Positions 26,992 to 32,539 of a DNA stretch of 53,472 bases are shown piece by piece (the first letter of the stretch is position 1; every line of letters begins with the position of its first letter). A model generated the notes under the pieces. It searched no databases, was not told the origin of the DNA, and saw nothing but the letters and a program-made list of their open reading frames with translations. The position numbers were made by a program, and so were the translations under genes. The DNA is from Elusimicrobiota bacterium (lineage in GTDB: Bacteria; Elusimicrobiota; Elusimicrobia; 2-02-FULL-39-32): the NCBI GenBank assembly GCA_021730935.1, contig JAKFYJ010000054.1, positions 1-53,472 on the forward strand, read 5' to 3'.

Positions 26992-27140
26992 TGGGGTCTT
27001 TGTTTCAGATAGGGAGTCAGCAGTCGGAGGGAGGCTTCAAGCCACTTGAACCTTTGAAACGCGGTGGTGTGATGCAAAGTGAATAGGATTTGCTCGCGCT
27101 CATGATCTTCAAAACTTCTATTTTTTCTTAATTTTTTCAT
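26988..27140 (-). CDS. Small basic 50-residue protein, partner of the nucleotidyltransferase
   Basis: A short gene not obvious from length filters: ATG at 27140, stop at 26988, 50 residues, Lys/Arg-rich start (MKKLRKNRSFEDHEREQ) then a likely helix with FQRFKWLEASLRLL. It begins 23 nt inside the 3' end of the nucleotidyltransferase gene in another frame, and its TGA overlaps the ATG of the amidotransferase. Both overlaps favour real, coupled translation. The HE...RFKWLE pattern resembles small partners often found after AbiEii-like nucleotidyltransferases, from memory rather than a search. No function is assigned. Confidence 0.65.
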   Translation of the reverse strand: MKKLRKNRSFEDHEREQILFTLHHTTAFQRFKWLEASLRLLTPYLKQRPQ

Positions 27141-27633
27141 TCTTGATTATCTCCAGAATTCTAACGTCTTCCAGGTCTTTGGGGCGTCCAGCTTTCCTTT
27201 TCATCTTAATGAGATCAGGGATGGAACAAATCCTAATGGGGACAGCGCCGAGGTTTTTGATGACGGAACGGGACAGGAGCGCTTTAAAGTCCATGGGATA
27301 ATCCACAAAAAAATCTATGCCGATCAACGGATTGTCACTTTTGTAAAACGAAAAAACCATCAGGCCTTTTTCTTTAATCCAGGCGGCTCTTTGCATAGGA
27401 TCCGCAAATCCCTGAGGATCAACCGGAACGCGCGGTTTATAGCCAAGCTTGGACAGAATTTTGAGAGCTTTCAACGCGTTGGGTTTATCCAGTCCCACAA
27501 CTAAATCGACATCCATCGTTAGCCGCGAATGACCATGCAGCACCGTTGCAAGACCGCCCACAACAATATAAGAAACTCTCTCACGATTGAACTTTTGGAT
27601 TAGCGGGAGAAAAAGGGACATCAGATGCGCCAA
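27118..27633 (-). CDS. AbiEii/MNT-like nucleotidyltransferase
   Basis: 171 residues of the polymerase-beta-like nucleotidyltransferase superfamily. The catalytic block is VVGGLATVLHGHSRLTMDVDL (GG...D41xD43), with a third acidic residue likely at D107 in IGIDFFVD. MKRKAGRPKDLEDVRIL near the end is typical of toxin-like nucleotidyltransferases such as AbiEii. Start may be the TTG at 27633 (1 nt after the argH stop) or the ATG at 27621. Paired with a small overlapping gene it may form a toxin-antitoxin-like unit; that is inference. Confidence 0.8.
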   Translation of the reverse strand: MAHLMSLFLPLIQKFNRERVSYIVVGGLATVLHGHSRLTMDVDLVVGLDKPNALKALKILSKLGYKPRVPVDPQGFADPMQRAAWIKEKGLMVFSFYKSDNPLIGIDFFVDYPMDFKALLSRSVIKNLGAVPIRICSIPDLIKMKRKAGRPKDLEDVRILEIIKNEKIKKK

Positions 27634-31796: not shown

Positions 31797-31810
31797 AACC
31801 TCCTTAGGTT
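31797..31810 (-). promoter_or_regulatory. Alternative hairpin over the Shine-Dalgarno of the 94-codon gene
   Basis: On the minus strand AACCT-AAGG-AGGTT folds the 3' half of a2 (AACCT) onto the end of the Shine-Dalgarno (AGGTT), with the remaining Shine-Dalgarno bases in the loop. The same AACCT is what pairs with a1, which also begins AGGTT. The two pairings are mutually exclusive. This could couple intactness of the structured RNA to translation of the downstream protein. Confidence 0.45.
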
Positions 31811-32074
31811 CTTTATTGTGCTCGGCTCACGGGTTACGTGTGTAACCACACTGAGTCTCCGGCAGAAGCAATGCATTGCACTGCTATATATTTCCTGCAA
31901 ATCTATGATGATTCTTATATCGCTTCTTAGACAAGACACAATAATGTGAATTGGTAAGGCAAATGAAGAATGCAATCTTAGCCGCAGGAAAGGAGAGACA
32001 GATTTCTCTATCCCGATCTCAAGGAAGTATTAACATAATGATCCTGCTGTCAAAGAACCTGGGCTGATTAGCCC
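31806..32074 (-). ncRNA. Putative retron msr-msd RNA with a1/a2 complementary ends
   Basis: A structured untranslated stretch upstream of the RT operon on the same strand, start inferred from the promoter. End complementarity: AGGTTCTTT (a1, 32060-32052) pairs perfectly with AAAGAACCT (a2, 31814-31806). GAC-AGC follows a1, which matches the AGC branching-guanosine context of known msr RNAs. msr-like stems: AGGA..ATTA-TGT-TAAT..TCCT (32045-32022) and GG..AGAGA/TCTCT..CC (32013-31992). A likely msd base stem is TTATTGTG (31944-31937) with CACAATAA (31820-31813), abutting a2. Inside it lie AGAAGCGAT/ATTGCTTCT (31927-31919 with 31872-31864, one G-U), the palindrome GCAATGCATTGC (31879-31868) and CTCA..GGTTAC-ACAC-GTAACC..TGAG (31855-31826). 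A further hairpin TGGGCT-AATC-AGCCCA (32075-32060) sits at the presumed 5' end. Boundaries are inferred. Confidence 0.75.
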
Positions 32075-32080
32075 AAAGCT

Positions 32081-32110
32081 ATTATAGGTTATACTACAAG
32101 TATAAGTCAA
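32081..32110 (-). promoter_or_regulatory. Strong sigma70 promoter of the retron-like operon
   Basis: Minus strand: -35 TTGACT (32110-32105), 18-nt spacer, -10 TATAAT (32086-32081). One mismatch to consensus overall. Transcription should begin near 32074, at the first hairpin of the structured RNA and 14 nt before a1. It is the best promoter match in the window beside that of groES. Confidence 0.8.
32089..32105. promoter_or_regulatory. 17-bp palindromic operator in the retron promoter
   Basis: TTATACT-ACA-AGTATAA on the plus strand (TTATACT-TGT-AGTATAA on the other) is a perfect 7+3+7 palindrome filling the spacer and touching the -35 box. Size and position are typical of operators bound by XRE/Cro-type dimers. 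The co-encoded XRE protein is the obvious candidate ligand (inference). Confidence 0.7.
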
Positions 32111-32218: not shown

Positions 32219-32539
32219 ATGAAAAAGACAAAATCATTTAGGGAAAGTTTGATCAAAGCTTTAAGAGACCCGGTCGAAGCCGCTGAATATTTAAACGCCG
32301 TTCTCGAAGAGGGGGACATCACCCTGTTGTTGGAAGCTCTGCGTGATGTTGCGGAAGCCCAGCATGGGTTCTCAAAGCTTTCCCGCCTGACTAAATTAAA
32401 CCGAGCCAACCTATACCAAATGCTTTCATCACATGGCAACCCAAGAATCCAGAGTCTGGAAAGCGTTCTCAGAGTTTTCGGGTTAAGAATTGGGGTTATT
32501 CCAGAAATAAAGCCGACCCATCACCGTAAAGCTGCATAG
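32219..32539 (+). CDS. HigA-like addiction-module antidote protein without a visible toxin
   Basis: 106 residues from the ATG at 32219; an in-frame upstream extension to 32162 is not conserved-looking. FRESLIKALRDPVEAAEYLNAVLEEGD matches the N-terminal pattern of the putative addiction-module antidote family, followed by an HTH with RANLYQMLSSHGNPRIQSLESVLRVFGLRI (parts quoted). In that family a RelE/ParE-like toxin normally precedes the antitoxin; here the preceding 420 nt hold only the divergent retron promoter and RNA. TATAAT at 32152-32157, inside an imperfect TGTAT..ATACA repeat, may be its promoter. Confidence 0.75.
   Translation: MKKTKSFRESLIKALRDPVEAAEYLNAVLEEGDITLLLEALRDVAEAQHGFSKLSRLTKLNRANLYQMLSSHGNPRIQSLESVLRVFGLRIGVIPEIKPTHHRKAA

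Follow-up and report, generated by a model that had tools for sequence, protein, structure and literature searches.

A probable type VI-like retron operon and its candidate msr-msd RNA in an Elusimicrobiota bacterium

The stretch of DNA analysed here (the window, 53,472 nt from an Elusimicrobiota bacterium) very probably encodes a retron msr-msd on its minus strand, since a retron-type reverse transcriptase (RT) gene is predicted to be co-transcribed with the RNA, the fold goes beyond chance and relatives carry terminal complements of their own. Judged by sequence comparison, it is a real msr-msd, set in a type VI-like operon whose lineage is divergent. As a retron it is ordinary; its points of interest are an effector candidate, an operator and a possible RNA switch. 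It is the operon of a small ORF (sORF), an HTH gene and the RT gene, absent from the original prediction, that gives the RNA its meaning. The retron is a probable anti-virus system and the sORF protein is probably its weapon. New here are a probable HTH operator palindrome, a boxA-like element at the a1 end and a predicted fold-back over the Shine-Dalgarno (SD) sequence and AUG of the sORF.

The operon and its small cationic protein

On the minus strand, a2 is followed by the SD sequence AAGGAGG (31805-31799, immediately 3' of a2), the sORF (31794-31510, 94 aa), an XRE-type HTH gene (31480-31193) and the retron RT gene (31196-30246, 316 aa), whose TTG start overlaps the HTH stop. The HTH protein, a probable autorepressor, matches HTH_3 and the PADLOC profile HTH_VI (75.8 bits, E=5.9e-22), the partner family of type VI retrons, and a small auxiliary ORF lies between the ncRNA and the HTH gene, as it does in that type. 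The RT matches RVT_1 and retron RT profiles (up to 231 bits) and has intact NALPH (NAxxH, residues 91-95) and FIDD (IDD) motifs. Its VTK at the VTG position (VTG in the related locus L009, TTG in L010) appears to set it apart from other retron RTs with VTG and counts against the reading proposed below. The sORF product aligns to that of L009 (z=5.9), has a net charge of +12 and a hydrophobic N-terminal stretch, and is predicted to be mostly helical (AlphaFold model, mean pLDDT 76). No PADLOC model matches it, Pfam, NCBIfam and PHROGs gave no informative match, and a PDB fold search with the model found no resembling solved structure.

About 25 loci, spread over several phyla, repeat the order ncRNA-sORF-HTH-RT with the sORF just upstream of the HTH gene. 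The same gene order is found in L009 (RT 44%, HTH 48% identical to the window), L010 (RT 33%) and L031 from Acidobacteriaceae (RT about 34% where the two could be matched), all of which share a longer form of the sORF (83-105 aa). Canonical type VI loci come from Staphylococcus, Enterococcus, Agrobacterium, Acinetobacter, Azospirillum, Sphingobium, Aeromonas, Burkholderia, Rhizobium, Leisingera, Microvirga, several phages and E. coli, where 99 of 5,426 complete genomes carry the P2-prophage version; their sORFs, also just upstream of the HTH gene, usually combine a basic N-terminus with a hydrophobic or amphipathic helix. No close relatives of the window locus came up when viral and genome contigs were scanned with single proteins, and scanning plasmids with the HTH protein gave none either. 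Among the matches set aside, L077-L079 (E. coli and Klebsiella plasmids) are Se72/cold-shock retrons and not type VI, and the Priestia match H1 has HNH and ATPase genes as partners. On the Bacteroides uniformis plasmid pBUN2 (L046), a cationic 71-aa ORF (2752-2967) with a GTTCTTTGA motif upstream directly precedes an RT of the RT_VI type, and the annotation shows no HTH gene separating the two. L007 (G113, C89) has an HTH_VI gene with an upstream 37-aa cationic sORF and a structured leader; no RT was found within the 1.5 kb examined, and a second HTH_VI copy lies 3.8 kb off. In the type VI locus L006 (G076), the RT gene is apparently split into two frames.

Sequence comparison shows how the genes are ordered, that the RT is of the retron type and the regulator of the HTH_VI type, and that a structured RNA has its a2 end directly ahead of the SD for a small basic protein; distant relatives have this layout too. 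We suggest that these belong, as is probable, to a type VI-like retron operon made up of a promoter and operator, an ncRNA leader containing the msr-msd, a sORF effector, an HTH autorepressor and restraint by RT-msDNA. The HTH protein would bind the promoter palindrome and repress the operon; the RT would copy the hairpin region into msDNA, priming near a1; and the small cationic, partly hydrophobic protein would be a toxic effector, restrained by the RT-msDNA complex and the HTH protein until phage infection disturbs the complex. Alternatively, the operon could be a retron whose sORF product serves RT-msDNA as a structural partner, either accessory or antitoxin, while the active step falls to the HTH protein or to phage-triggered derepression. 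The window-lineage products (83-105 aa) are predicted to be mostly alpha-helical, are longer than the canonical ones (37-67 aa) and conserve few residues, all of which would suit such a partner. However, canonical type VI sORFs are short, cationic and amphipathic or hydrophobic, like membrane-acting toxins, and the operon has no other effector candidate, and we judge a structural role possible but on balance unlikely. The locus and its relatives suggest a small cationic protein, encoded right behind the msr-msd, as the general effector candidate.

In the sister species (G004, locus L127), a Gp49-type toxin gene (PF05973) and an HI1420-type antitoxin gene lie beside argG. The window has an orphan HI1420-type antitoxin gene (32219-32539, plus strand), and the retron occupies the place of the Gp49-type toxin gene. 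With the antitoxin kept and the retron at the toxin's place, the retron seems to stand as a replacement in a small toxin-antitoxin site. A nucleotidyltransferase-like gene (DUF6036, weakly AbiEii-like; 27118-27633, minus strand) adjoins argH.

The retron RNA and its ends

The original prediction placed the ends of the RNA in a perfect 9-bp complement 237 nt apart, and its coordinates are exact: a1, AGGTTCTTT (32060-32052), and a2, AAAGAACCT (31814-31806), are complementary on the minus strand, with ten pairs if one G-U is counted. A terminal stem of at least nine Watson-Crick pairs at these positions arises in 0.55% of shuffles (p=0.006), or in 1.1% with other limits. About 1% of shuffles contain a 9-mer complement with a loop of at least 150 nt somewhere in the region, which makes the complement modest evidence when taken by itself. 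Folding against shuffled controls, proposed as the check, came out in favour of a structured RNA: the minimum free energy of 31800-32074 (minus strand) is -91 kcal/mol, compared with -65.4 +/- 4.9 for dinucleotide shuffles (z=-5.26, none of the 200 as good). An RNA with a1/a2 ends and nested hairpins is thus predicted near the RT gene. Searching Rfam with it returned no retron family, only chance matches.

The predicted fold begins with a 5' leader hairpin, GGGCTaatcAGCCC (32074-32061), and short hairpins like it stand at the same place in L009, L010, L002, L004 and L006. Downstream of a1 come a short msr-type hairpin, GGGATAGA/TCTGTCTC (32014-31995, mean P 0.98), a long imperfect hairpin that is the best msd-core candidate (31991-31891, mean P 0.92-0.98) and, ahead of a2, two further hairpins (31885-31867 and 31864-31819, mean P 0.95-0.98). 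The inner stem proposed originally fared less well. Both of its sequences, TTATTGTG (31944-31937) and CACAATAA (31820-31813), are present, but their pairing has a probability of about zero in the longer transcript, and the shorter transcript lacks it in its minimum-energy fold; on these predicted folds we reject it as the msd boundary. CACAATAA overlaps a2 by 2 nt, and TTATTGTG sits in a predicted local hairpin inside the 101-nt arm 31991-31891, which the folds suggest is a better msd candidate than the region between the two. Because this stem is unsupported, so is the msDNA boundary of about 130 nt that was drawn from it. The branch-site claim survives in part: GAC and then AGC (32048-32046, minus strand, a possible branch-site context) do follow a1, but the AGC is not kept at the nearest relatives, L009 (GACAACGGG after a1) and L010 (GACATGATATGC). 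AGC is seen near a1 in L031 and L004.

The relatives have terminal complements at the same place as the window: TCTTTGA/TCAAAGA in L009 (p=0.11), TGACATGAT/ATCATGTCA in L010 (p=0.017) and GAGTGGAG/CTCCACTC in L031 (p=0.036). Taken as the best stem per locus, with an identical search in the shuffles and RNA starts set by eye at the leader hairpin, these three and the window give a combined shuffle p of 4e-4, and their sequences differ between loci. Nine enterobacterial type VI loci, when aligned, show GAGAU/AUCUC as the terminal stem, with a short hairpin of the msr type and another, longer hairpin, and in 23 of the 50 predicted pairs both sides have changed with pairing kept in at least one sequence; these changes support an msr-msd for canonical type VI and do not bear directly on the RNA of the window. 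The a1/a2 complement might nevertheless be a chance match, the true ends lying at other positions of this RNA. By chance, a terminal stem of this kind is expected at 0.5-1% per locus, which is not negligible, the AGC is not conserved in relatives, and the stem is displaced in a longer transcript (below). The three relatives with a stem at the same place and other sequences speak against coincidence, and we think it unlikely.

Promoter, boxA-like element and a possible fold switch

A sigma-70-type promoter is predicted just upstream of the leader (minus strand; -35 TTGACT, 32110-32105; -10 TATAAT, 32086-32081; spacer 18), and that of L009 is closely similar. The -35 element and spacer are overlapped by a perfect 7-3-7 palindrome, TTATACT-tgt-AGTATAA (TTATACTtgtAGTATAA, 32089-32105), a candidate HTH operator that by itself is weak evidence (shuffle p=0.027). 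The L031 promoter has the palindrome ATATAACT-gac-AGTTATAT (ATATAACTgacAGTTATAT, p=0.007), and many canonical type VI loci from several phyla (among L069-L091) have TTCGCT-nnn-AGCGAA (TTCGCTnnnAGCGAA) at the -35, with arms of up to 19 bp, likely the conserved operator of their HTH_VI protein. No perfect repeat was found at the L009 promoter. The window palindrome is a probable HTH operator, and the promoter palindromes fit autorepression by the HTH protein; the locus and its relatives thus supply a testable operator.

boxA is an rRNA antitermination site. A boxA-like element, TTCTTTGA (32057-32050, minus strand; in GGTTCTTTGACAG, and TTCTTTGACA at a1), overlaps a1. We call it boxA-like from motif similarity and general knowledge of such sites. 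All seven Elusimicrobiota loci examined, which span both RT lineages, carry the 8-mer [TCG]TCTTTGA close to the 5' end of the RNA, and none of the 24 other loci does; the seven are not independent, because the L002/L004/L006 group is closely related. TTCTTTGA or GTCTTTGA also occurs in four of seven Elusimicrobiota rRNA leaders, 122-224 nt before the 16S gene and in one case as TTGTTCTTTGACAA; these leaders come from other genomes of the phylum, no 16S gene having been found in the window's own. The Bacteroides locus L046 has AGTTCTTTGATAG ahead of its sORF-RT pair, so the element may not be confined to Elusimicrobiota.

In the segment after a1 (32050-32015, minus strand), an anti-start segment, ACAGCAGG, ATTATGTTAAT and ACTTCCTTGAGATC are the complements of sORF codons, the AUG and the SD. 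If the RNA ends at the sORF start, a1/a2 pairing has a predicted probability of 0.97; with at least 45 nt of the sORF it falls to 0.00, and the segment pairs with the SD, AUG and codons instead (0.79-0.98 with 60 nt of sORF included). The a1/a2 helix would thus be preferred only while the RNA stops before the sORF, the competing fold setting in at about 45 nt. When the sORF codons were shuffled, this displacement was reached in 5% of cases for the window and 0.5% for L009; when the 45 nt after a1 were shuffled, it was reached in 0/200 (<0.005) for either. In L010 and L031 displacement was not significant against shuffles, and in most canonical type VI loci the fold-back did not rise above chance either. 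With an excess over shuffles only in the window and L009 we reject SD sequestration as general to type VI loci. A direct duplex test, which gave the window p=0.059 and L009 p=0.02, was weaker than the displacement test. The predicted switch, in the window and its sister locus L009 only, is a lead, not a result.

One fold, with a1/a2 paired and the SD free, would suit the RT; the other would lay the 5' segment over the SD and AUG. If the two are exclusive, reverse transcription and effector translation could be coupled. A bistable msr-msd, in which the a1/a2 fold serves reverse transcription and the other hides the effector start, with a1 a repurposed rRNA-type boxA that passes polymerase through the long untranslated leader, is a speculative and rather unlikely proposal; if true, reverse transcription would directly set translation of the retron's own effector. 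It raises the possibility that retron RNA controls its effector by translation and not only by protein sequestration. On another reading, the RNA would be nothing more than a structured 5' leader that governs sORF translation, like that of a type I toxin, while the RT copies something else or is inactive. That would fit the predicted fold-back, the boxA-like element and the VTK of the RT, but the intact NAxxH and IDD motifs, the a1/a2-like terminal stems that recur in relatives, and the short hairpin, long hairpin and terminal stem of canonical relatives, as in an msr-msd, make this very doubtful.

In type I toxin-antitoxin mRNAs such as hok, the fold-back of the mRNA itself can cover the toxin start. 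The window resembles them in having a small toxin-like ORF whose start its own mRNA could cover; unlike them, its leader would also be a reverse transcriptase template, and its operon has HTH and RT genes.

Relation to type VI and other retrons

The window RT scores higher with the PADLOC profile RT_III-A (231 bits) than with RT_VI (204 bits), whereas canonical type VI RTs favour RT_VI by about 110 bits or more. The best profile is III-A for the window, L009 and L010, and XIII for L031. In a tree of 47 rows, canonical type VI RTs form a clade (100/99) that excludes the window, and the window and L009 RTs are sisters (100/99). A tree that keeps these two with type VI is worse by 2.8 log units (AU p=0.17), which softens the firm split suggested by our first tree; a lineage distinct from canonical type VI is favoured rather than proven, because the AU test leaves type VI membership possible. 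The RT_III-A match is not accompanied by the partners of type III or XIII retrons: no PRTase, winged-helix or other such gene is present, the neighbours being argG, argH, the sORF, the XRE HTH gene and the HI1420-type antitoxin gene.

In the account of PMC8541194, citing Mestre et al. 2020, type VI comprises an RT, a DNA-binding protein and a small auxiliary protein; as that passage lists the latter, the sORF class was already known. The literature that could be searched yielded no experiments on type VI retrons, although some may exist. Type VI retrons of the Mestre et al. 2020 scheme, with examples in the phages P2_2H1, ST147-VIM1phi7.1 and Shewanella MuM16-1, share with the window their gene order, the HTH_VI match and, in many loci, a promoter palindrome. 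The window differs from them in an RT that prefers RT_III-A and falls outside the canonical clade, a sORF product about twice as long, a dissimilar ncRNA sequence and the boxA-like 5' element. A retron RT of one type joined to a different set of partner genes is also seen in Retron-Sda1 (PMC12548924), whose partners, unlike those of the window, are HipA/DUF3037, which act without the RT or ncRNA. With the window, the type VI plan would take in an RT from beyond the canonical clade, and also the little-studied phylum Elusimicrobiota.
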